DNA from: a virus
Reading direction: 5' to 3' (one strand)
DNA length: 63,196 nucleotides
IMG/VR virus record: IMGVR_UViG_3300046171_000106
Location: 1-63,196 of that record
How positions within the stretch are numbered: position 1 is the stretch's first letter; each line of letters opens with the position of its first letter. The notes under the pieces are model-generated. The model saw only the letters and a program-made list of their open reading frames with translations, made no database searches and was not told where the DNA came from. Shown here piece after piece: positions 14,916-39,443 of this stretch. Both the position numbers and the translations under genes were made by a program.

Positions 14916-15635
14916 TTATTTAGGGAATTCAAGATTTCCATCTGGTAAAACACTAAACTCCATAACATCATTGAAACTTGGTCGTCCACCCAAATCTTTG
15001 TTTATTTCACCAGTTTGTTTACTTTTAAAACTATTATTAAATGCAATAGATATTCTTTCAAAGTCACTACTATGTGGTTCTACATAATGTATCATTGCAG
15101 AAGGAAATAATAATAAATCACCTTCCTGTGGTATAAATCCAAAATTGTCTGCATCTCTTCTAGACATGTGGGTAAAGTCTGACATGTGATGTGCTTGGCC
15201 ACTCTGGAATTGTACCCACCCATCATTTTTAGTTTCTTCTGGTATTTGTACATAGAATGCACCACTGTACCAACAGCCAGGATGTGTATGGGGATTATTG
15301 TATGAAGTATTGTAATTAATATTTACCCAGTAGTTACCATGTTCTACTTCATAATCATTTTTATATTCACCCATGTAATATGGAAAAACTTCATTGTTGA
15401 AAACACTCTCAACACCATTTAATAAAGATTGGAATATAGGTCTTTCATTTACACCATCATCGGACTGCCAACCAGATGCATTATTAGAACGATTCCTACC
15501 AACTGGATTTTCTTTCCTCATGGTATAAGACTCTTTCTTCATTGCATTAAGTTGTTCACGAGTAATGTATCCCTCATCTACGAGATTTGTTCTAAATACA
15601 TTCCATGAAAACATTGGTATAAACATTAGTTCCAC
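14916..15635 (-). CDS. 2OG-Fe(II) oxygenase, TIGR02466-like
   Basis: 239 residues. The Fe/2OG core is visible: NYNTSYNNPHTHPGCWYSGA at about 105-125 with the first histidines, then GDLLLFPSAMIHYVEPHSSD with the distal histidine, and ERISIAFN with the 2OG-binding arginine. These are jelly-roll hydroxylases common in marine T4-like phages; the substrate is unknown. It overlaps the stop of the 295-aa gene by 10 bases. An internal start at Met8 (MFSWNVF) is possible. Confidence 0.85.
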   Translation of the reverse strand: MELMFIPMFSWNVFRTNLVDEGYITREQLNAMKKESYTMRKENPVGRNRSNNASGWQSDDGVNERPIFQSLLNGVESVFNNEVFPYYMGEYKNDYEVEHGNYWVNINYNTSYNNPHTHPGCWYSGAFYVQIPEETKNDGWVQFQSGQAHHMSDFTHMSRRDADNFGFIPQEGDLLLFPSAMIHYVEPHSSDFERISIAFNNSFKSKQTGEINKDLGGRPSFNDVMEFSVLPDGNLEFPK

Positions 15636-16513
15636 TCCTTTTTAGCTGCAAGTTTTTTCCTATAAAAGTGGTCAAATTCTTTTATTCCACCCCTTCCTCG
15701 TTTTTCCATTAAATCTACAATTGGGTCATTCATTCTTTCTAAAAGTTCTTCTTTTGTACGATACTCAATCTTATGTTTCCAAGGATATCTAACAAAAGGT
15801 ACGAGTTGTACTATTGGTGTACCTTTTGGTATAATAAAACTTTTATCTGCCTTTGGATAAAAAATACACATATTATTAGTTGTCAATTGATTAAATTTAT
15901 CAGTATCTATTACTCCTTGCCATGCATGAAAGAATGGATTATTAAATAAAAATGGGTCTAACCAATATGTAGAAGTTCCTTTAGGTGTAGTTATTAAAAA
16001 ATCTAATTTAAATTTAAATGCCATTTTATCGTCATAACCACTACCTCTTGTTTGTGCAGCTGGATGACCACCTACAACATAATTACCTGTTAGTTCCTCT
16101 ACAAGAAGAAGATGTGACATACAATACTCATGTATTCTATCAGTATCATCTAAACTACCAGTCTTATTGAACTCCTTAACCAGTTCTCTAAGTTTTTCAA
16201 ATTTATCTTTTGGAATATCATCTTTTAGTGCAAGTGCAATTGATATCGGTTCATTTTCTTTATCACCTTTACTTAATGCAACAATAACAGTATGTCTATT
16301 TCTAATTAGATAACCCATGTTCATCCAGTCTTGCATAGCTGGACATTTTTTTATGGTTTCAGATGTTTCATCATAATTATCTATATACAAAGGTAATTTT
16401 TTAAACCACTCTGGTCTAACTTTCTTTGCTGGGATGGGTTCAAATAAACTATTTTCTGTGTCTTGAACACATTCAAATAGTATTTCTTGTTCTTTTATTG
16501 GGCATTCGTCCAT
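15626..16513 (-). CDS. Conserved phage protein (DUF6065-like), unknown function
   Basis: 295 residues. Features are a PxxxKKxRPEWFKKLP opening, KKCPAMQDWMNMGYLIR, VVGGHPAAQTRGSG, LDPFLFNNPFFHAWQGVIDT and IPKGTPIVQLVPFVR. I recall this set from a family of phage and marine bacterial proteins labelled DUF6065; the match was not checked. A cupin-like sheet is plausible but unproven. It overlaps both neighbours (DUF2061 gene and oxygenase), so the three are translated as a unit. Confidence 0.7.
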   Translation of the reverse strand: MDECPIKEQEILFECVQDTENSLFEPIPAKKVRPEWFKKLPLYIDNYDETSETIKKCPAMQDWMNMGYLIRNRHTVIVALSKGDKENEPISIALALKDDIPKDKFEKLRELVKEFNKTGSLDDTDRIHEYCMSHLLLVEELTGNYVVGGHPAAQTRGSGYDDKMAFKFKLDFLITTPKGTSTYWLDPFLFNNPFFHAWQGVIDTDKFNQLTTNNMCIFYPKADKSFIIPKGTPIVQLVPFVRYPWKHKIEYRTKEELLERMNDPIVDLMEKRGRGGIKEFDHFYRKKLAAKKEWN

Positions 16514-16731
16514 ATTCGCTCGTGTAAATAATATAATAATAATTTTAAAAAGAAGTCAAAAGTCATGATACCAGCTGCAACCTCAACTGAACCTGTAAGA
16601 AAATAACTAATTAATCCAGTAGTAACTGTTGCAATAATTCTCCATGAAAATGCTTTTGCAATTGACTTACTGTGAGTATCCAAGTTGTCTCCTAATCTCT
16701 GTTGCGGAGATTGATTCTGTCTCTTTATCAA
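16495..16731 (-). CDS. DUF2061 membrane protein
   Basis: 78 residues from ATG 16731. A TTG start (about 16683, LDTHSKSIAKAF) would reduce a 65-base overlap with the preceding gene to 17 bases and gives a more typical DUF2061 length. SIAKAFSWRIIATVTTGLISYFLTG and FFLKLLLYYLHERIW are diagnostic of PF09834, a two-helix membrane domain often found beside APS-kinase genes, as here. Function unknown. Confidence 0.85.
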   Translation of the reverse strand: MIKRQNQSPQQRLGDNLDTHSKSIAKAFSWRIIATVTTGLISYFLTGSVEVAAGIMTFDFFLKLLLYYLHERIWTNAQ

Positions 16732-17455
16732 AAGACTCCTCTTCTATCTTGTACCCCACATCTCTTCCATATGTTATGTTGACAATGTTCGGTACTTTCT
16801 GTATAATATAGTGTACATTTTCTTCGTATCCTTCTCCTAGTAAAAACATTTTAATGTTTTGTTTTACTGTCTTGAAATCAAATGGATTCTTTGCAGTGTT
16901 TTCCATTGCACGAACCATAATTACTACTTGTCCTGTTTTATCAAAACATCTTTTAAATAGTGCATGATGACCATCATGAAAAGGTTGAAATCTACCTAAC
17001 ATTTGTGTAGTAGGTTTATTTTCATCAAACCTTTTATTGTCTGCAAGTATTTCTCTTGCAATAACTTCTGAATGAAGTTCACCATTCTGGTCTTCTACTA
17101 GATAATCTATTTCATTTTTTAAAGGTCTTTGAAATGCTTTATTAGTATCTGCATATCTACCTTTATCAATTGTATCCATAAAGATTATATAATCTGGATT
17201 TAAAATTTGTCGACCTTGAGTAAATGGACATACGAAATCCATAATTGCATATGGTTTTTCGGATTCTCTACATAGGTCTTTCATCCTATGTACTTGTCTC
17301 ATTCTACCTTCCTCTGAGAAATCCCAATCATTGTGTTGGGCTCGGACTGCATCTGCATTGAAATGGTCTGCATCTAAATGTTCAAGTAGACATTTTGAGA
17401 TGTAAGTTTTTCCACTGCCAGGCAGTCCCATAATTAAAATTGTTTTTGTTTTCAT
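16667..17455 (-). CDS. Fusion of APS-kinase-like P-loop kinase and NMNAT-type nucleotidyltransferase
   Basis: 262 residues. Residues 1-120 form a CysC-like kinase: P-loop GLPGSGKT (10-17), the NADAVR motif (33-38) and NDWDFSEEGR (42-51). Residues 150-262 form a nucleotidyltransferase: GRFQPFHDGH (154-163) carrying HxGH, and the C-terminal ISATEIRR, equal to the ISSTxxR motif. NadR has NMN adenylyltransferase first and kinase second; here the order is reversed. It may make or salvage a nucleotide cofactor or an adenylylated small molecule. The neighbours are DUF2061 and two oxygenases. A weak late-like box (CATAAGTA) lies five bases before the ATG. Confidence 0.85.
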   Translation of the reverse strand: MKTKTILIMGLPGSGKTYISKCLLEHLDADHFNADAVRAQHNDWDFSEEGRMRQVHRMKDLCRESEKPYAIMDFVCPFTQGRQILNPDYIIFMDTIDKGRYADTNKAFQRPLKNEIDYLVEDQNGELHSEVIAREILADNKRFDENKPTTQMLGRFQPFHDGHHALFKRCFDKTGQVVIMVRAMENTAKNPFDFKTVKQNIKMFLLGEGYEENVHYIIQKVPNIVNITYGRDVGYKIEEESFDKETESISATEIRRQLGYSQ

Positions 17456-17469
17456 ACTAATACTTATGG

Positions 17470-18387
17470 TTACTCAAAAAGACTACATCGGTCTCCACGA
17501 ACTACCATACTTGTTCGAAAAGGAAATCCATTTTCCTTTGTATATTCAGCTGATGGTGCTGGATGTCTATGTGTTACTGCACCATTCATTACTACCAAAC
17601 GATTAGGTCTATATTGCACTCTACCTACTTCATATTTTTCTTCATCTTCTGGAATACCTGTTATATTATGGTCATGATATTCTCTATTGTAAAAAATTAA
17701 ATCACCACCCCAGTCTTCTTCCCACTTTTCTTGGTCGTAATATAGAAATGATAAATTATCAAGAGCAGATTCATTTAAGTGTGTATCTTCATGCACTGTA
17801 CCATCTTGACCTATTGTTTGTCCATTCCATCCACAATATTGAAAGTATTCCCAATTAAATCTAAAATCTTGTCTTAATTTATGGATAAACCAATCAGTAT
17901 GAACATCCCTATATCCTTCGTGATTTCTTGCTTGAACATTTTCTTTCCAACTAGATGTTAGGAATCTACGATTATTAAAATTGCGTAATGCATAACTAAC
18001 CATCTTACCACTACCATATGCATTTTTTAAACAAGTTCCACTTCCACCTGTTTCTGCAATATTAATGTATACAGCTTCACCCCAATAGAGATGTTGGAAT
18101 TCTCCATCTCTAAAGACTTTATTTTGTCGTCCCCAGTTTATTTGTGCATCTCTCCATTGTCTCCATGAACTCCATATGGCTGGTGATAGATAATTATCAA
18201 TTACCCATACTTGTTGGAAAGGAAGAGATTTTATTGGTTTGGGTCTATCTAGGTATTCAATGTTAAGAGGATGTTCTAACCATGCATAGTTATCCAGATA
18301 TTCATCATAGTTATCTTCTTGTAAACCATTAACTAGTTTAGACTGCTTTTTTGTCTTCACCCAATTTATCCTCACCACCATTAACAT
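17470..18387 (-). CDS. 2OG-Fe(II) oxygenase (prolyl-hydroxylase type)
   Basis: 305 residues. TVHEDTHLNE at about 197-206 gives HxD, LSFLYYDQEKWEEDWGGDLIFY follows, NRLVVMNGAVTHRHPAPS carries the distal histidine and FRTSMVVRG the 2OG-binding arginine. This is a different subgroup from the 14916-15635 enzyme. A GTG start at about 18360 (VKTKKQSK, with AGGAT upstream) would cut the 50-base overlap with the preceding gene to 23 bases. Substrate unknown. Confidence 0.85.
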   Translation of the reverse strand: MLMVVRINWVKTKKQSKLVNGLQEDNYDEYLDNYAWLEHPLNIEYLDRPKPIKSLPFQQVWVIDNYLSPAIWSSWRQWRDAQINWGRQNKVFRDGEFQHLYWGEAVYINIAETGGSGTCLKNAYGSGKMVSYALRNFNNRRFLTSSWKENVQARNHEGYRDVHTDWFIHKLRQDFRFNWEYFQYCGWNGQTIGQDGTVHEDTHLNESALDNLSFLYYDQEKWEEDWGGDLIFYNREYHDHNITGIPEDEEKYEVGRVQYRPNRLVVMNGAVTHRHPAPSAEYTKENGFPFRTSMVVRGDRCSLFE

Positions 18388-18706
18388 CTAATGTATCGGT
18401 ATTAAATCTTTCATCAATCGGTGAGTCATCCATGAAATGTCCTACTCTAGGAATTTCTGCAAGATTATTTAAATAATGACTAAAGTCTTTGCAATCTTCA
18501 TCTAAAGTTTGTGTTAATTCTTCAACTAGTCTTTCACATAAACCATGTGCAAAGTCACACCACTCCATAATTCTTCTTGCAACTTGTCGTCTAGGGTCTT
18601 GAGAACCTTCTCTACCAGCAATAACCAGAGCAGTTACATCACTCAAATCCACATATACCTCTTGTAAATTCCTCATGAACATAATCGATTTTATCAATTG
18701 TTTCAT
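18338..18706 (-). CDS. Hypothetical protein, helical, acidic C-terminus
   Basis: Up to 122 residues. The first ATG gives a 68-base overlap with the upstream gene, so Met11 (18676, MRNLQEVYVDLSD) is the likelier start. PRRQVARRIMEWCDFAHGLCERLVEELTQTL predicts a long amphipathic helix; the tail is acidic (GGEDKLGEDKK). No family recognised. It is part of the overlapping accessory gene string with the oxygenase. Because of the overlap a frame error joining it to its upstream neighbour cannot be excluded. Confidence 0.6.
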   Translation of the reverse strand: MKQLIKSIMFMRNLQEVYVDLSDVTALVIAGREGSQDPRRQVARRIMEWCDFAHGLCERLVEELTQTLDEDCKDFSHYLNNLAEIPRVGHFMDDSPIDERFNTDTLDVNGGEDKLGEDKKAV

Positions 18707-18977
18707 TTCTTAAATCTTTTATATACTGATTAGCAAGTGTTAAACTTAGAGGTGGTTCTAAAAGGTTTAAATATTCTAGAATTTCAGATTTTTGTTCATC
18801 TGTTATTATAGAAGTTTCTTCACCTAATTCTATTTCAAATAACTCATCTTGTTCTATATAGAATAAAAAATCGTAGTCAAATGAAAATTGTGGTTTGTCT
18901 GCTTTGTCATAATTCCAACGAAGTCCTCTTTCATTGGTAATGTGTAAAACATTGTCGTGGTCATAAATTAATAACAT
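18639..18977 (-). CDS. Hypothetical protein, acidic
   Basis: 112 residues, starting MLLIYDHDNVLHITNERG, rich in Asp/Glu and Phe/Tyr (FSFDYDFLFYIEQDELFEIELGEE is split here by description: residues about 32-55). No family recognised. GGAG lies eight bases before the ATG. The 3' end overlaps the next gene. First gene of the accessory string after the repeat protein in transcription order. Confidence 0.6.
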   Translation of the reverse strand: MLLIYDHDNVLHITNERGLRWNYDKADKPQFSFDYDFLFYIEQDELFEIELGEETSIITDEQKSEILEYLNLLEPPLSLTLANQYIKDLRNETIDKIDYVHEEFTRGICGFE

Positions 18978-19018: not shown

Positions 19019-20710
19019 TTAAGGCCAAGGTTTATTCAAATCACCATCCCATGTAGATACTGGTCGAGTCGATGGTCTTGTACTTGGTCTAGTAGAAGGT
19101 CTAGTCGATGGTCTATTTGCTGGTCTAGTCAATGTCACTTCATAGTTGGCAGGTCTACTGATAGTCTGTTCAAAGTTAGCAGGTCTATTGTTTTGCAACT
19201 GAGTTGGTCTAGGAATAGTCTGTTCAAATGTTGAAGGTCTACTAATAGTCTGTTCAAAGGTTGCTGGTCTACTAGTTTGATAGTTAGTAGGTCTACTATT
19301 TTGTAACTGAGTTGGTCTAGGTATAGTCACCTCATAGTTAGCAGGTCTATTAATAGTTTGTTCATAGTTGGCAGGTCTGTTAATAGTTTGCTCATAGTTA
19401 GCAGGTCTACTAGTTTGATAGTTAGTAGGTCTAGGTATTGTTTGTTCATAGTTAGCAGGTCTGTTAATAGTTTGCTCATAGTTAGCAGGTCTATTAATGG
19501 TTACCTCATAGTTAGCAGGTCTATTACCTTGAGTTTGGTAATTTTGTGGTCTAGTAGAATGTCCTTGAGTTTGGTAATTCTGTGGTCTAGTTGCATGACC
19601 AGTAGTCTGATAATTTTGTGGTCTAGTTGCATGACCTTGAGTTTGGTAATTCTGTGGTCTAGTTGCATGACCTTGAGACTGGTAAGTAGTAGGTCTACTA
19701 TTCTGTTGTTGATAATTATAAGGTTGCTGAGTATTTATCTGATTTGGAGACCATGGGCCTACTGGTTGGAAAGCTGGTGAAGCTGTACCACCCCAAATCA
19801 TCTGAGCATTAGGAAACTGTTGGTTTGTTGCACCAGCACCAAACTTAGGGTTTGCCGCAGTATGAAAATTCACTTGGTATGTTTGTTGGTTATTAACTGG
19901 TCTAAAACCATGAGCCCCTGTTTGATAATTAGCTGGTCTATGATTCTGAATCTGATAGTTATACTGTTGTGGTCTATGATTCTGTATTTGATAATTATAC
20001 TGAGCAGGTCTATGATTTTGAATCTGATAGTTATACTGTTGTGGTCTATGATTCTGAATCTGATAGTTATACTGTTGTGGTCTATGATTCTGAATCTGAT
20101 AAGTTGTAGGCCTAGGTATTGTTTGTTCGTAAGAAGTAGGTCTTGGTATAGTTACCTCATAACTTGTAGGTCTTGGTATAGTTACCTCATAACTTGATGG
20201 TCTACTATTCTGTACCTGTGTTGGTCTAGGAATAGTTACCTCGTAAGAAGTGGGTCTAGGTATAGTCACTTCGTAAGAAGTAGGTCTAGGAATAGTCTGT
20301 TCAAAGTTAGCAGGTCTAGGAGTTTGGAAATTAGCAGGTCTACTATTCTGTACCTGTGTAGGTCTTGGAATAGTTACTTCATAAGAAGTAGGTCTTGAAA
20401 TAGTTTGTTCAAAGTTAGCAGGTCTTGGAGTTTGAAAAGTAGTAGGTCTAGGTATAGTCACCTCATAAGTTGTAGGTCTACTAATAGTTTGTTCATAGGG
20501 TTGTTGATACCCTTGTTGAAAAGGTTGTTGAAATGGTTGTTGAAATGTCTGTGTAAAAGGTTGTTGCACCTGTATAGTTCCAGTCTGGAATTCCCATCCA
20601 GTTGGAGTCTTTCTTTTTACATCAACTACTTTCTTCCAGCCAGCTGGAGTTTTAACTCTCCATCCATTGGTTTCATTCCACCCAGCTGGGGTTTTTACTT
20701 TTGAACTCAT
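19019..20710 (-). CDS. Arg-Pro/aromatic repeat protein, putative fibre or adhesin
   Basis: 563 residues. Residues 1-45 carry three KTP(A/T)GW motifs, the small Trp hairpin seen at the start of phage tail adhesins. Then come Gln/Pro/Phe repeats, and from about 75 to 260 and 330 to 545 dozens of RPxx(Y/F) units with a period near 10 (such as IPRPTSYEVT and INRPANYEQT) or 12 (QIQNHRPQQYNY). A non-repetitive core at about 262-330 separates the blocks. The C-terminus is (RPST)n followed by WDGDLNKPWP. Acidic residues are few and the composition is that of an extended, low-complexity shaft. It lies distal to the fibre operon, so a virion surface role is likely but unproven. Confidence 0.8.
   Translation of the reverse strand: MSSKVKTPAGWNETNGWRVKTPAGWKKVVDVKRKTPTGWEFQTGTIQVQQPFTQTFQQPFQQPFQQGYQQPYEQTISRPTTYEVTIPRPTTFQTPRPANFEQTISRPTSYEVTIPRPTQVQNSRPANFQTPRPANFEQTIPRPTSYEVTIPRPTSYEVTIPRPTQVQNSRPSSYEVTIPRPTSYEVTIPRPTSYEQTIPRPTTYQIQNHRPQQYNYQIQNHRPQQYNYQIQNHRPAQYNYQIQNHRPQQYNYQIQNHRPANYQTGAHGFRPVNNQQTYQVNFHTAANPKFGAGATNQQFPNAQMIWGGTASPAFQPVGPWSPNQINTQQPYNYQQQNSRPTTYQSQGHATRPQNYQTQGHATRPQNYQTTGHATRPQNYQTQGHSTRPQNYQTQGNRPANYEVTINRPANYEQTINRPANYEQTIPRPTNYQTSRPANYEQTINRPANYEQTINRPANYEVTIPRPTQLQNSRPTNYQTSRPATFEQTISRPSTFEQTIPRPTQLQNNRPANFEQTISRPANYEVTLTRPANRPSTRPSTRPSTRPSTRPVSTWDGDLNKPWP
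19050..20530. repeat. Degenerate tandem repeats inside the Arg-Pro repeat gene
   Basis: On the plus strand GCAGGTCTA, GTAGGTCTA and GGTCTATGATTCTG units recur every 24-36 bases. Runs at 19930-20100 (36-base period) and 19300-19520 (30-base period) are nearly identical. Such a stretch invites recombination and misassembly, so repeat number may vary between related genomes. Confidence 0.8.
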
Positions 20711-20742: not shown

Positions 20743-23034
20743 CTATGAGTATGTTATCCAGATATCACCTACTGCTCCATCAGTACCTTGTGGGGCAGAA
20801 CTGTGTATAAATGTATTTCTGAATGCCTTTGCACTAGAACCTATTGTTGTATAACTTGTTGTTGCAGCTCCTGTAACTCCTAGTGTTCCACCTACTGTTT
20901 GGTTACCACTAACTGCAAGTGAACTCAATGTTCCAACACTTGTAATTGCAGATTGAGCTGCACCTGTAACTGTAGCTGCACTTCCAGAGACATTGCCTGT
21001 AACATTACCTTCTATGTTTGCAACTAATGTTCCAGTAGTTACTGTTAAACCACCTGTTGAAGAACCTGTTGCAGTAGTTGTTCCCATAACAAACTTATCT
21101 GCACTCTCGTCCCAACCCATAAATGCATTGTTACCTGTTGAACCTCTTTCAAGTATAAGACCTAAGTCATTACTGTTTGAACCAGTATTACCAGAACCAA
21201 GTTCTATTAATGCATCTTCAATTGTTGTGTTTGTTGAACTGTTTGTTACAGATGAACCATTAACTGTTAGGTTACCAGTAATTACAACATTACCACCAGC
21301 AGTTATATCTGTTGCAGCTATATCTGCAAAGGTTACATCTGAGGATGTTGATACATCCTGTCCAATACTAATTGCAGGCTCCCATCCTTCACCAGCACTA
21401 CCACTTACAGTAACACCAGTTCCACCAGTAACATTGTCTACATAGTTTCCAGATGTTCCAGAACCTAATGCAACTGTTCCTACTGCTAGGTCAATTGTAT
21501 TGTCTGCATCTTGATATGTTACAGTAATACCTGTTTCAGTATTTGAAGTGAACATTGCACCTACTGTGTCGGATACTGCTTCTGCAAAGTCTGATACTTG
21601 AGATGAAGGCATACTAATGTCTACACTAGATGCACTTGTTATTCTACCTTTTGAATCTACTGCTACTTGAGCAACACTATTTGCATCACCATAAGTTGCA
21701 GCTGATACACCAGAGTTTGCAAGTGTGATTGGTAATGCAACATTTCCTGTTCCATCAAATGATTGTGATGAATCTGTAGTTGCATCTCCACTTACTGTAA
21801 AGTTTCTTGACGATGCAAGTGCAGTTGCAGTTGCAGCGTTTCCTGTTGTACTTCCAGAAGTACCACTTACATTACCTGTAATATTTGCAACTAATGTACC
21901 TACAGTATATCCTGTTCCAGATGTATTAACTGTTGTTGAAGGTTCTACTTGTGTATCTGTAAATAATCTAAATGTATTATCTGTTGATGCATCGTAGAAT
22001 AAACCACCATATTTTGTTGTAGATGATTCTACATATTTACCATAGAAACCAAAGTCTGTTGCATTTCCAGAGTTTGCATCTGTTAAACCTGTAAAGTTTG
22101 AATCTGTAACTGTTGAACCAGTGTTAGTTGTTGTACCACTAACTACTAAGTTACCACTAACTGTTAAGTCATTTGCAACTGTAACATCAGCAGGTAATCC
22201 ATATGTAATTGTTCCAGAACTTTCTGTAACATCTACTTCACCACCTGTTCCAGCAAATGTTATTGTTCCACCCAATGAAGTTGCAGTTGAACTACCAGAT
22301 GTAGCAACTGTTATACTTGAATTTGCAAGTTTACTATTTGCAATAGAACCTGCTAACATACTATTTTCTACAGCACCAGATGCTATTGTTAATGCAGTTG
22401 CAGTATTACCTAGATTGGTCATTGTTGCTGAACCAGTCACATCTCCTGTGAAACTAAGTACTGGGTCTGCAACATTAAAGTCTAAAGTACCATCTGAGTC
22501 ATCATATGTTACTGAAATACCACTTTCTGTGTTAGTTGTTACCATTCCACCAACAACATCTTCGACTGATTCTTCAAAGTCTGAGATGGTTGATGCAGTT
22601 GTGTTTATTACTAAATCTATTGTTCCATCACCATCTTCATAAGATGCAGTAATACCTGTTTCAGTATTTGAACTGAACATTGCACCTATTGTATCTTGAA
22701 TAACTTCTGATAAGTCAATGTTTGCACTACCATCAAATGATACACCATGAATTGTTCTTGCAGTTGCTAATGCTGTAGCTGTTGATGCATTACCTGTTAA
22801 TGCACCTGTGAATGATGTTGCTGTAACACCACCTGTTACTGTTACACCACTTGAAGTTGTTTCTAATTTTTTAGAATTATCGTTATATAAATCTACTGCA
22901 CCATCTTTAGTTGCAACAACCATATTCTCAGTACCAGCCATCAATTTAACACTGTCACCATTGGTTTTAAGTATTAAATTTCCATCTGATGTATCTTCAA
23001 TATAACTGTTTGATGCGTCATGGTATAATTCCAT
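20743..23034 (-). CDS. Tail fibre/structural protein, C-terminal fragment
   Basis: 763 residues beginning MELYHDASNSYIEDTSDGNL, which is the interior of the common marine phage fibre repeat FGDGGxLxxYHDxSxSYI. The missing FGDGGGN lies just upstream in this same frame and joins the 23048-24997 frame through an A6 run at 23063-23068 (one A too many). The rest is Gly/Thr/Ser-rich beta repeats (SFTGALTGNASTATALATAR, VVGGMVTTNTESGI) typical of trimeric fibres. The intact gene would span 20743-24997, about 1,418 aa. Confidence 0.8.
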   Translation of the reverse strand: MELYHDASNSYIEDTSDGNLILKTNGDSVKLMAGTENMVVATKDGAVDLYNDNSKKLETTSSGVTVTGGVTATSFTGALTGNASTATALATARTIHGVSFDGSANIDLSEVIQDTIGAMFSSNTETGITASYEDGDGTIDLVINTTASTISDFEESVEDVVGGMVTTNTESGISVTYDDSDGTLDFNVADPVLSFTGDVTGSATMTNLGNTATALTIASGAVENSMLAGSIANSKLANSSITVATSGSSTATSLGGTITFAGTGGEVDVTESSGTITYGLPADVTVANDLTVSGNLVVSGTTTNTGSTVTDSNFTGLTDANSGNATDFGFYGKYVESSTTKYGGLFYDASTDNTFRLFTDTQVEPSTTVNTSGTGYTVGTLVANITGNVSGTSGSTTGNAATATALASSRNFTVSGDATTDSSQSFDGTGNVALPITLANSGVSAATYGDANSVAQVAVDSKGRITSASSVDISMPSSQVSDFAEAVSDTVGAMFTSNTETGITVTYQDADNTIDLAVGTVALGSGTSGNYVDNVTGGTGVTVSGSAGEGWEPAISIGQDVSTSSDVTFADIAATDITAGGNVVITGNLTVNGSSVTNSSTNTTIEDALIELGSGNTGSNSNDLGLILERGSTGNNAFMGWDESADKFVMGTTTATGSSTGGLTVTTGTLVANIEGNVTGNVSGSAATVTGAAQSAITSVGTLSSLAVSGNQTVGGTLGVTGAATTSYTTIGSSAKAFRNTFIHSSAPQGTDGAVGDIWITYS

Positions 23035-23047
23035 ATTACCACCACCA

Positions 23048-24997
23048 TCACCAAAGATAATCTTTTTTATCGTCTCCTAATGTAATGTCTTTGAAGAACA
23101 TGTTTTTGGTGCCAGAAATTAACTGTGCATAGTCATTAGCGGTTGAACCACCAGCGATTGCAAGACCACCAATTAATTGAGTGATTTGACCAAATGTAGT
23201 CCCAGCATCTTTTAAGAATACAGTTCCACCATCTGCATCAACTGTAACATTTCCACCAGCATCTAGTGTTAAATCACTAGCATCAGATATTGTAGAACCA
23301 TCAATAGTAATATCATCTACTGTTAATGAGGTAAGAGTACCTAAACTTGTTATTTGAGATTGAGCTGCATCTACTGATAATGAATGTGCAATACCTTCAC
23401 CAGAAGTTGCACCTGTAGAAGTAAGACCTGTTCCTGCTGTTACTGTCCCTACATAATTACCTGTTGTATCATTACCTAATGCAACTGAGTCTGATTGAAT
23501 TGTTGAACTGATTGATATGTTTCCACTTCCATCAAAGGATGCAGAACCAACTACATCTCCAGATATTGCAATTGTTCTTGCAGTTGCAAGTGCAGAAGCT
23601 GTGGATGCATTACCTGTTAATGCACCTTCAACATTTGAAATTAAAGTACCTGTTGTATGACCTGTTCCAGATGTATCGACTACAGTTGTAGGTTCTGTTT
23701 GGTTTCCATGGAATAATCTAAACTTATCTGATTCAGATGCATCCCATAAAAGTCCTGCGTATTTTGTAGTTGAACCATCAACATACTGACCATAGTAACC
23801 AAAGTCTACTGAATTTGCAGCGTTATCTTTTGCAACTTTAACAGTACTATCTGCTACTGAAAGTGATGTAGATGATACTGTAGTTGTACTACCACTTACA
23901 GTTAAGTTTCCACCTACTGTCATATTACCACTTGTAGAAGCTGTACCACTAACTGTTAAATCACCTGCGACTGTTACATCGTCTGGTAATCCAATTGTTA
24001 CACCTGCGTTTTCTGAACCAGAACCAGATACTTCAATTTCATTTGAAGTTCCAGTTACAGTTGCAACATAGTTTCCTGTTGTGTCTGTTCCTAATGCAAC
24101 ACTATTAGCTGCAATAGTTGTACTGATAGATGTATTTCCTAGGTTCGTCATTGTTGCAGAACCAGTTACATCTCCTGTCAATGAAATTGTAGGGTCATTA
24201 ACATTAAAATCTAAAGTACCATCTGAGTCTTCATATGTGACACTAATACCACTTTCGGTATTAGATGATACCATTCCACCAACAACATCTTGTACTCTTT
24301 CTGTTGTATGGTATTGGTTTGTTCCTTCTGGTACGAATGATGTACTAGATACTGTTCCTACATCTACTCTTGAACCCATACCACTATGATTTGAACAGAA
24401 GTAATATAATGGGTTTGTTGCATCCATAGCTAATGCAACTTCTGTATATGAACCTGCTGAGCCTGGAGTTCCAACTTTGTTGTAAATGGTATATTCACCA
24501 GAACCTATTTCTGAACCATTTGCAGCTGTACCAATTCTTAAAGGATGAGAACTATTACTATTATCTGATTGGTCGAACCTGTATACTACGCCAGGAGAGA
24601 GCTTAGCTACTTGTTGTGTTCCACCATCTAATTGATACTTATTACCACTTTCATTAACTACTGTAACTGTAATCTTATGATAAAATGGTGCAGTTGTGTT
24701 GTTTAGTTGTTGTTCTACTGCAAGGTCGATAGTTCCATCACCATCTTCATAACCTACAGTTATATTTGTTTCAGTGTTGGAACTAAACATAGCTCCCACT
24801 GTGTCTTGAATAAATTCTGCACCTACTGTTGCACTAAAGGTTGCATTACTGTCATTATAACTGAATGATATACCTGTATGTGAACCAGCTGCAAACAGAG
24901 TTGAAATCTGGTCTTGTATTGCCTCAACTGCACCTGTGGAGTCTAGTTCTCCAGATGCATTTAAAAGGTCTGCAAGATATCTTGCTTTTGTTGGCAT
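23048..24997 (-). CDS. Tail fibre/structural protein, N-terminal fragment
   Basis: 649 residues. It starts MPTKARYLADLLNASGELD, a usual start for marine phage fibre proteins, and contains repeats of VGGMVSSNTESGISVTYEDSDG and VTVAGDLTVSG type plus a cupredoxin-like insert near residue 120-200 (HPLRIGTA, YYFCSNHSGMG). The frame ends artificially in DDKKDYLW because of an extra A at 23063-23068; the restored reading is DDKKIIFGDGGGN and continues into 20743-23034. TTAGGAGAA precedes the ATG and a CATAAATA box overlaps the previous stop. Confidence 0.8.
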   Translation of the reverse strand: MPTKARYLADLLNASGELDSTGAVEAIQDQISTLFAAGSHTGISFSYNDSNATFSATVGAEFIQDTVGAMFSSNTETNITVGYEDGDGTIDLAVEQQLNNTTAPFYHKITVTVVNESGNKYQLDGGTQQVAKLSPGVVYRFDQSDNSNSSHPLRIGTAANGSEIGSGEYTIYNKVGTPGSAGSYTEVALAMDATNPLYYFCSNHSGMGSRVDVGTVSSTSFVPEGTNQYHTTERVQDVVGGMVSSNTESGISVTYEDSDGTLDFNVNDPTISLTGDVTGSATMTNLGNTSISTTIAANSVALGTDTTGNYVATVTGTSNEIEVSGSGSENAGVTIGLPDDVTVAGDLTVSGTASTSGNMTVGGNLTVSGSTTTVSSTSLSVADSTVKVAKDNAANSVDFGYYGQYVDGSTTKYAGLLWDASESDKFRLFHGNQTEPTTVVDTSGTGHTTGTLISNVEGALTGNASTASALATARTIAISGDVVGSASFDGSGNISISSTIQSDSVALGNDTTGNYVGTVTAGTGLTSTGATSGEGIAHSLSVDAAQSQITSLGTLTSLTVDDITIDGSTISDASDLTLDAGGNVTVDADGGTVFLKDAGTTFGQITQLIGGLAIAGGSTANDYAQLISGTKNMFFKDITLGDDKKDYLW

Positions 24998-38006: not shown

Positions 38007-39443
38007 CTACATTTCAATTATTAGTTTAATATCCTCAATCTGGTCAGCTGCCCTTGCTACTGCACCACGATTTTCTAAGTATACAATGTCACCAGAGTTT
38101 CTTTGTACTTCTGGATACGCTGCACTTACACCATTACTTGAGTTGATAGTACCTTTTTGTGTACTACCTACAAAAACACCATTGCTATTTGCAAATGCAT
38201 TAAAGTTTCCAACTGAATCTACACTTGGTAGATAATAAACATATCTATTAGTTGAATCAACTGATACTACTTTACCTGTTGCAGTTCCACTTGTTATGGA
38301 AGCTGCACTTGCTATTGTAGAGTCAACTGCTGGCATTGTTGCACCAGACTGTAATGTAATTCTATTTAATGCACTTAGTGTTGTTGCACTTGACAAAGTG
38401 TTACCACCAGCATTGGTTGGATTTACAATTAAACCAATTTGTCTAAAGTCGTTATCTGTTGGGAAGTCACCAGAACCCTCTGCATATTCTAATCGAGAGT
38501 TTACGATGACATAGTTTCCACCTAATTCTTCTACTGGGTCTGACCCATGTCCATTTTTAGGACTAATGATTATATCAAAAGCTGCACCAGTTCCAGAAGA
38601 ACTTGTTGCAGTTCTGAGTAATGCATTATCTATACTTGCAACTGAGTATCCACTACCCACTGCATTTACTGTTACTGCTGTAATAGCACCAGAAGACACT
38701 GTTACTTGTAGTTGTCCACTTGCACCATCACCACTAATTGCAACATTGAAGTTACCATCTGAACCATATGAAGAACCACCTGCTGTGACTCTTGCATGTT
38801 CTATAGTACCATCTGTTGCACCATTTTCTACATCCCATTGTGCAGAGTTATCATCTGCAGCTGCAGTTCCTAGTCCACCAACATCACCCTCAACTCCTGC
38901 TTTTGCACCAATAGTTTTTACTGGTATGAAATCAGATGTTACAAATTTAATAACATCGGATGCAGAGATAGAATACATAAATTTCCATTTGTATCCATCA
39001 CCTGTTGTTAAGATGTTTGTTGAAGTACCTGTTGGCATAACTGTTGAGTCTGCACCATTATTATTTGAGATTACTTTATATACATTGTAATCACTGGTTA
39101 CAACATGAAATGTTGATGCCCATAAAGTAGATGCATTACTTGTTGATTTGTTACTTGATGTGTAATTATGCCTATACTCATCATATTTTGTTCCACTTGT
39201 CCAGTCTCTTCGGATAATGGCATGACTTACATCTGTTGATGAAACTTTTTTAAGTGCTGTCATATTTGCATATGCATCATACTCATCATTTAGAGAGTCT
39301 ACTGGAGTCGGCGGGTTTGAATCATCTGTCCACGATAAAGGTCTTCCAATAAACATATACATTGCATTACCAGTTTCGGTTGCACTTTGTTTGAATTCCT
39401 TTGCGTTGTGGAGACGAAATTTTTCGGTAATTATCGCTGCCAT
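38007..39443 (-). CDS. gp8: Baseplate wedge protein, gp8-like
   Basis: 478 residues. AAIITEKFRLHNAKEFKQS, MYMFIGRPLSWTDDSNPPTP, SHAIIRRDWTSGTKYDEY, FHVVTSDYNVYKVISNN and TTGDGYKWKFMYSISASD match the marine phage protein annotated as baseplate wedge gp8. A small beta-domain segment occurs at about 370-400. AGAGGAAAGG precedes the ATG and two late promoters lie 40-57 bases upstream. Confidence 0.75.
   Translation of the reverse strand: MAAIITEKFRLHNAKEFKQSATETGNAMYMFIGRPLSWTDDSNPPTPVDSLNDEYDAYANMTALKKVSSTDVSHAIIRRDWTSGTKYDEYRHNYTSSNKSTSNASTLWASTFHVVTSDYNVYKVISNNNGADSTVMPTGTSTNILTTGDGYKWKFMYSISASDVIKFVTSDFIPVKTIGAKAGVEGDVGGLGTAAADDNSAQWDVENGATDGTIEHARVTAGGSSYGSDGNFNVAISGDGASGQLQVTVSSGAITAVTVNAVGSGYSVASIDNALLRTATSSSGTGAAFDIIISPKNGHGSDPVEELGGNYVIVNSRLEYAEGSGDFPTDNDFRQIGLIVNPTNAGGNTLSSATTLSALNRITLQSGATMPAVDSTIASAASITSGTATGKVVSVDSTNRYVYYLPSVDSVGNFNAFANSNGVFVGSTQKGTINSSNGVSAAYPEVQRNSGDIVYLENRGAVARAADQIEDIKLIIEM

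Follow-up and report, generated by a model that had tools for sequence, protein, structure and literature searches.

The nearest described counterpart of the protein analysed here is the needle of T4 gp37 (domain D11), whose chain runs out and back as antiparallel strands with the receptor-binding tip at the turn. This needle contains HxH iron sites and an antiparallel register with small-large complementarity, and its inter-subunit contacts G921-F970 and H929-G964 give the residue sums 1891 and 1893 (PMC6957217). Eight HxH motifs occur in T4 gp37, seven of them from residue 883 on. We analysed a gene on a 63-kb virus record (63,196 nucleotides, referred to as a whole as the window), whose 563-aa product appears to resemble the needle in its outgoing and returning antiparallel arms, its tip at the turn and its near-constant register sum, and some of its relatives also carry HxH motifs. 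In contrast to the Gly/Ser/Thr-rich trimer of T4 with its iron sites, the window protein is far longer, lacks HxH, and consists of Arg-Pro/aromatic units that match in length and complement each other in type, without detectable sequence relation to gp37. Judged by these features, the gp37 needle is the nearest mechanical analogue, but both the sequence and the HxH pattern speak against membership in its family.

Other known systems share single aspects. The gp38 adhesins of T2 and S16 are tip adhesins with a conserved frame and a variable part, and their gene also lies directly after a distal fibre gene. However, gp38 is a Gly-rich polyglycine-II sandwich, whereas the arms described here are not Gly-rich and follow a grammar of period 2 instead of 3. 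In Trp-zipper and other designed beta-hairpin peptides, cross-strand aromatic pairs hold a two-stranded hairpin together; these are short and synthetic, while the present case is natural, Arg-aromatic and hundreds of residues long, with a pairing code. The composition recalls Arg/Tyr-rich phase-separating proteins and mussel foot repeats, which combine Pro, Tyr and a basic residue in decapeptide-like repeats, but these are taken as disordered and unpaired, whereas here the arms covary in register. By analogy only, RNA or DNA stem-loops also show antiparallel complementary partners, compensatory two-sided changes and a loop at the tip, although here a polypeptide with about four unit-pair types takes the place of base pairs. 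Usual repeat proteins stack neighbouring units, whereas here distant units pair by length and type; a search of the open-access literature found no precedent for a paired-arm repeat protein, which is weak evidence of absence.

The ORF at 19019..20710 (minus strand, as for all coordinates within this gene) begins with an ATG and encodes 563 aa. The protein starts with three KTPxGW motifs, contains a unique core at about residues 270-338 and ends in (RPST)4 RPVSTWDGDLNKPWP. It has 45 Arg-Pro dipeptides, which hold 45 of its 47 Arg residues and follow each other at spacings of only 10, 12, 8 or 4 residues, plus a single gap of 69 at the core. Pro accounts for 13% of the residues, and the protein is rich in Arg, Tyr and Gln, with a strong positive charge from Arg; Gly is found at only 19 of 563 positions, and the arms have no repeated Gly-rich motif. 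An earlier note had described such an Arg/Pro/aromatic repeat ORF with a KTPxGW head, a core and an (RPST)n end, which we confirmed both in the sequence and in its relatives. It had further proposed RPxx(Y/F) units in two phases; 34 of the 45 Arg-Pro dipeptides indeed have this form, but the arrangement is better put as two mirrored arms.

From IMG/VR, we obtained 22 distinct full-length relatives. In the larger contigs examined, all matches to the window protein fell within one gene, and among the first 19 full-length proteins the first Arg-Pro was at residue 78 in every case, with 45 to 47 in total. The MAG labelled Synechococcus sp. CPC35 has a 99%-identical copy on one of its contigs. The contig L084 (NYUU01000002.1) is binned in a Synechococcus sp. 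MAG, although its phage region shows about 98% DNA identity to the window, and it is probably a mis-binned phage contig. Homologs were intact in many separately assembled contigs. Because intact frames, with the same head, tail and grammar, recur in independent assemblies from many metagenomes, the repeat number and the reading frame do not stem from faulty assembly, which the earlier note had named as a refuting outcome. Together with the low dN/dS of the arms given below, we regard the ORF as a real gene under selection. No Pfam or PHROGs family described the window protein, and neither collection gave a convincing tail-fibre match; the matches to phrog_34266, XRN1_D2_D3, Keratin_B2 and Extensin were set aside as weak or compositional. 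The Keratin_B2 cut-off was passed by relatives L082 and L083 over repeats of similar composition, which we read as compositional, with the window protein remaining below it. A profile search of PDB chains yielded no solved relative, and tblastn with the protein, its head and its repeats gave no match in 50,697 phage records, which may in part reflect masking of the repeats by the low-complexity filter. Phage proteins that lack Arg-Pro repeats (L053, L055 and L070) also carry KTPTGWKES-type motifs at their C termini, which may mark the Trp motif of the head as a module common to phages in general.

The Arg-Pro sites divide the protein into two arms. Arm A (residues 78-269; 19904..20479) has intervals of 8, 10 or 12 residues between these sites, and arm B (residues 339-528; 19127..19696) is its mirror image in interval length, with complementary unit types. 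Read from the core outward, the intervals are 12,12,12,12,12,10,10,10,10,8,10,10,10,8,8,10,10,8,10 in arm A and 12,12,12,12,10,10,10,10,8,10,10,10,8,8,10,10,8,10,10 in arm B, and the two lists become identical once one core-adjacent interval is dropped. The mirror match of 18/18 compares with a mean of 9.7 and a maximum of 15 after shuffling, and it was lost when one arm was shuffled or read in direct order. Mirrored intervals were found in all of the first 19 homologs, while the actual pattern varied, with 18 distinct patterns in 23 proteins; these are a fairer measure of independence than the counts given here and below, which come from related proteins and are not independent events. Intervals between Arg-Pro sites inside the arms were even in 827 of 828 cases in the first 19 full-length proteins, and the interval around the core ranged from 29 to 72 residues across relatives without a break in register. 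Paired units had equal length in 381 of 381 cases, a count favoured by the definition of the paired set, which contains only units whose flanking Arg-Pro sites find partner sites; the mirror-interval test is free of this bias.

The two arms also change together. In pairwise comparisons of homologs over aligned paired units, all 1326 changes in length affected both arms and none was confined to a single arm, and relative L083 carries four extra units on each of both arms. The suggestion that the repeats allow fast change in length is thus at odds with the data: the 19 closest proteins keep 45-47 Arg-Pro dipeptides and 532-569 aa, and more distant relatives alter both arms symmetrically, each change being matched on the other arm. 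In L002 (L002:6001-7707), we observed an extra 10-residue unit in arm A only, without a partner in arm B, which is possibly an uncompensated intermediate in arm evolution, and L019 contains an exceptional single 11-residue interval near the tip. The inner intervals of L039 (12/13, 28/29, 12/13 and 20/21) make arm B one residue longer per unit, which could represent regular beta-bulges. Two origins of the mirror at the DNA level were dropped by reasoning: with inverted repeats, the DNA itself would be reverse-complementary, but only the order of the protein units is mirrored, and gene conversion between the arms would copy the order instead of reversing it.

For a register test, residue i was set to face residue S-i, and each S was scored by the Arg-Pro to Tyr/Phe contacts across the arms. 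One value of S stood out in each protein. For the window protein, this was S=601 with 41 contacts, followed by S=591 with 26, and the contacts were reciprocal, with Arg-Pro sites of arm A on Tyr/Phe of arm B and Tyr/Phe of arm A on Arg-Pro sites of arm B. In the set of 23 proteins, an aromatic residue was opposite 927 of the 1009 Arg-Pro sites at S, as against 10 at S-2 and 51 at S+2, and 632 and 519 after slips to S-10 and S+10, respectively. The rule also applied to the divergent relatives L082 (36/36) and L083 (44/44), and to L100 and L102, which were found after it had been fixed (36/36 each). In addition, 1049 of 1072 Pro residues lay on one strand face. The sequence alone thus suffices to read a register spanning more than 200 residues. 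A constant summed side-chain volume of facing pairs was considered and dropped, as the commonest pairs differ widely (R-Y vs. G-I or A-T).

At the exact symmetry centre, these four relatives (L082, L083, L100 and L102) contain a Gly-flanked Lys-Asp/Asn/Glu-Gly turn, the four sequences being GGGK|DGGG, QEK|NGGG, GFK|NGGG and GEK|EGGG. All four also show 51-residue His-rich segments (HLHH, HQHQ, HFHH) at mirrored positions on both arms; in L082 and L083, the mirrored 51-residue segments are free of Arg-Pro. HxH motifs lie opposite each other at the register of L017 (193+402=595) and L083 (196+443=639 and 217+422=639), and facing HxH motifs are also present in L082. In L017, the His motifs occupy both partners of one unit pair, HQH being opposite HVH. 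The facing motifs of L082 and L083 could possibly form four-His metal sites. The window protein itself has no HxH motif.

Beyond their length, paired units follow a code of types. Complementary types (EQ/EV, V8/Y8, I10/T10 and N12/Q12) made up 355 of 381 pairs, whereas 2000 length-preserving shuffles of the B units gave 199.7±8 with a maximum of 226. YEQTI was paired with YEVTI 178 times, VQN-type with YQT-type 8-mers 67 times, YQIQN with YQTQG-type 10-mers 59 times and YNYQIQNH-type with YQTQGHAT-type 12-mers 49 times; self-pairs numbered 24 of 381. The orientation of a pair is free, as the V8 unit is split almost evenly between arm A (35 cases) and arm B (32), and close relatives swap arms jointly, as seen for 12-mers between L006 and L009 and for one 8-mer pair between L008 and L010. 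The unit code fixes the register, because sliding one arm of the window protein by a single unit reduces the complementary pairs from 17/18 to 5-6. This accounts for the way in which near-identical repeats in a very long hairpin could be kept from slipping, and the pairing grammar provides a testable rule for programmable protein duplexes.

The ladder extends to both termini, which differ sharply from the core in their rates of change. The head (residues 1-47; 20570..20710), with its three KTPxGW motifs 14 residues apart, is assigned to the hairpin base and shows about 90% identity in relatives. In the adjoining residues 48-77 (20480..20569), an aromatic residue at every fourth position (F52, F56, F60, F64, Y68 and Y72) continues the register ladder, each facing, at i+j=601, an Arg-Pro from the (RPST)n stretch at the C terminus. 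Conversely, residues 529-550 (19061..19126) read RPAN(RPST)4RP, with Arg every four residues, opposite the QQPF-type base segment. The C-terminal tail VSTWDGDLNKPWP and stop codon (19019..19060) are near-invariant in the alignment of relatives, and W562 of the tail is opposite W39 of the head, again at i+j=601. Head and tail together retain about 90% identity among main-clade relatives, whereas the core (residues 270-338; 19697..19903), which would be the hairpin tip, is the fastest-evolving part by identity and substitution counts, with a mean identity of 41% and a minimum of 12%. When the window is compared with L001, 7 substitutions in the tip are nonsynonymous and 1 is synonymous, as against about 23 and 42 in the arms (Fisher p=0.007), corresponding in this one pair to dN/dS values of 1.8 vs. 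0.14; the arms generally show values of about 0.14 to 0.22. Two other related pairs have a nonsynonymous excess in the tip that is not significant. With regard to a gp37-like receptor tip at the turn, the antiparallel register is strongly supported, and the evidence pointing to a receptor role is that of the rates.

We consider it likely that the protein is an antiparallel hairpin of about 220 residue pairs, most plausibly a beta-ribbon, in which a single chain folds back on itself. The N-terminal arm would run out from the base to the core at the tip, and the C-terminal arm would return in exact register, placing residue i opposite 601-i in the window protein. Nearly every Arg-Pro would then meet a Tyr or Phe of the other arm in a cation-pi/proline-aromatic zipper, joined by the complementary pairs YEQTI/YEVTI, VQN/YQT, YQIQN/YQTQG and YNYQIQNH/YQTQGHAT. 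The variable placement of types on the arms and the unit lengths of 8, 10 and 12 would act as a bar code, fixing the register and stopping slippage by whole repeats, while the Trp head and the C-terminal tail would meet to anchor the base. What the sequences show directly is the antiparallel register with its matched lengths and complementary types, the conservation of the base and the variability of the tip. Even spacing and Pro on one parity suggest strands whose side chains alternate between two faces, and the Pro positions would be sites where the backbone NH points outward in such an alternating ribbon. Fully extended in beta conformation, the shaft would measure roughly 70 nm and present the variable tip, which would probably contact the host receptor. 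On balance, we lean towards a natural single duplex of hundreds of residues, with a base-pair-like code, a unique register and both arms evolving together. If true, it would add a new class to the known protein fibres, and its way of encoding a fold would be a new sequence grammar. Counting against the hairpin are the unmatched arm A unit of L002 and the 11-residue interval of L019; moreover, neither strand face is strongly hydrophobic, which would make a two-stranded ribbon of this length, standing by itself, unusual. AlphaFold2 gave no usable model, either for the full-length protein, for which 18 sequences were aligned (pLDDT 33), or for a 115-residue tip fragment of L082 (pLDDT 39); covariation makes plain a fold that structure predictors can miss.

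The main rival to the single-chain hairpin, which we regard as a serious but distinctly less probable alternative, is a trimer of hairpins forming a six-stranded needle like the T4 gp37 tip, in which some or all of the i+j pairs would join different subunits. Phage fibres are usually trimeric, and the HxH motifs facing each other in L017, L082 and L083 recall the T4 needle, where HxH iron sites go along with an antiparallel inter-subunit register and small-large complementarity (PMC6957217). The window protein, however, has no HxH, motifs on both arms would amount to four His per hairpin vs. two in T4, and gp37-type profiles give no sequence match. Arg and Tyr are also large for a tight needle core, and about two Pro per 10-residue unit would occupy positions that an adjoining chain would need for outward hydrogen bonding. 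If such a trimer were correct, the fibre would be of a known kind but with a new pairing grammar. The register rule by itself is equally compatible with intra- and inter-chain pairing, and hence with an antiparallel homodimer, in which arm A of one chain lies on arm B of another to give a double-length rod that has a head at each end and the cores at its centre; we consider this improbable. The Gly-rich turn at the symmetry centre of four relatives is expected at the tip of a hairpin but not where a strand runs through the centre, favouring one chain that folds back over two that pair, and the core interval varies from 29 to 72 residues while the register holds.

Two readings without paired strands fare worse. 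A bundle of polyproline-II or PGII-type helices, the architecture of gp38 adhesins, would suit the Pro content and the location of the gene immediately after the distal fibre gene, which is the position of gp38 in T-even phages. Yet such helices repeat every three residues, whereas the spacings here are 4, 8, 10 and 12 and almost invariably even, Pro keeps one parity and the arms lack Gly-rich motifs, which makes this highly improbable. The disordered sticky tether or condensate-forming Arg/Tyr coat proposed in the earlier note is in line with the Arg-, Tyr- and Gln-rich composition and the very low AlphaFold2 confidence, but it leaves the mirrored intervals, the even spacing, the ladder at one register and the complementary types without any reason, and we give it hardly any credence. 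The find itself was remarkable, but its sequence looks like that of a register-locked single-chain duplex rather than a loose sticky polymer. With regard to function, the strong positive charge could indicate an Arg-rich protein that is internal or directed at the host, binding nucleic acids or membranes for instance, and lies after the fibre genes by chance. This is rather unlikely given that the gene directly follows the long fibre gene in every relative and combines an invariant base with a fastest-evolving tip, as in receptor-binding fibres.

The neighbourhood of the gene is conserved. The long fibre gene that directly precedes it is represented in the window by two ORFs of 763 and 649 aa (20743..24997, minus strand) and is a single ORF of 1286-1421 aa in every relative spanning the region; the broken frame in the window is either a true break or an assembly error. 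The placement of the repeat protein at the end of a fibre operon, as the earlier note had it, is borne out by this position. Directly behind follow two overlapping ORFs of 122 and 112 aa (18338..18977, minus strand), which correspond in every relative, the 98%-identical L084 among them, to a single gene of 207-212 aa. Its product matched no PHROG or Pfam family and, going by position, is possibly a dedicated chaperone. The order of these three genes is kept in all relatives spanning the region, the divergent ones included. Because the protein combines an invariant base, a constrained shaft and a fast tip with a place behind the long fibre gene, we suggest that it is a virion fibre whose tip contacts a host receptor. 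The data thus point to the probable host-contacting tip of a marine T4-like phage group.

A cluster further downstream (14916..18387) is also syntenic in relatives. It encodes a weakly 2OG-Fe(II) oxygenase-like protein (17470..18387), a kinase/cytidylyltransferase-like protein (16667..17455) and two further proteins (15626..16513 and 14916..15635). Hydroxylation of the Pro residues by the oxygenase-like protein, for which no significant solved relative was found, was considered and dropped: its gene adjoins in all relatives, as does the whole cluster. A photosystem reaction-centre gene was absent from a 146-kb relative, so a cyanobacterial host is mildly disfavoured. The window, whose sheath and baseplate proteins match PHROG families, belongs on this evidence to a contractile-tail, T4-like marine phage, and its baseplate protein (38007..39443) is closest to that of Pelagibacter phage Mosig, with 41.5% identity.
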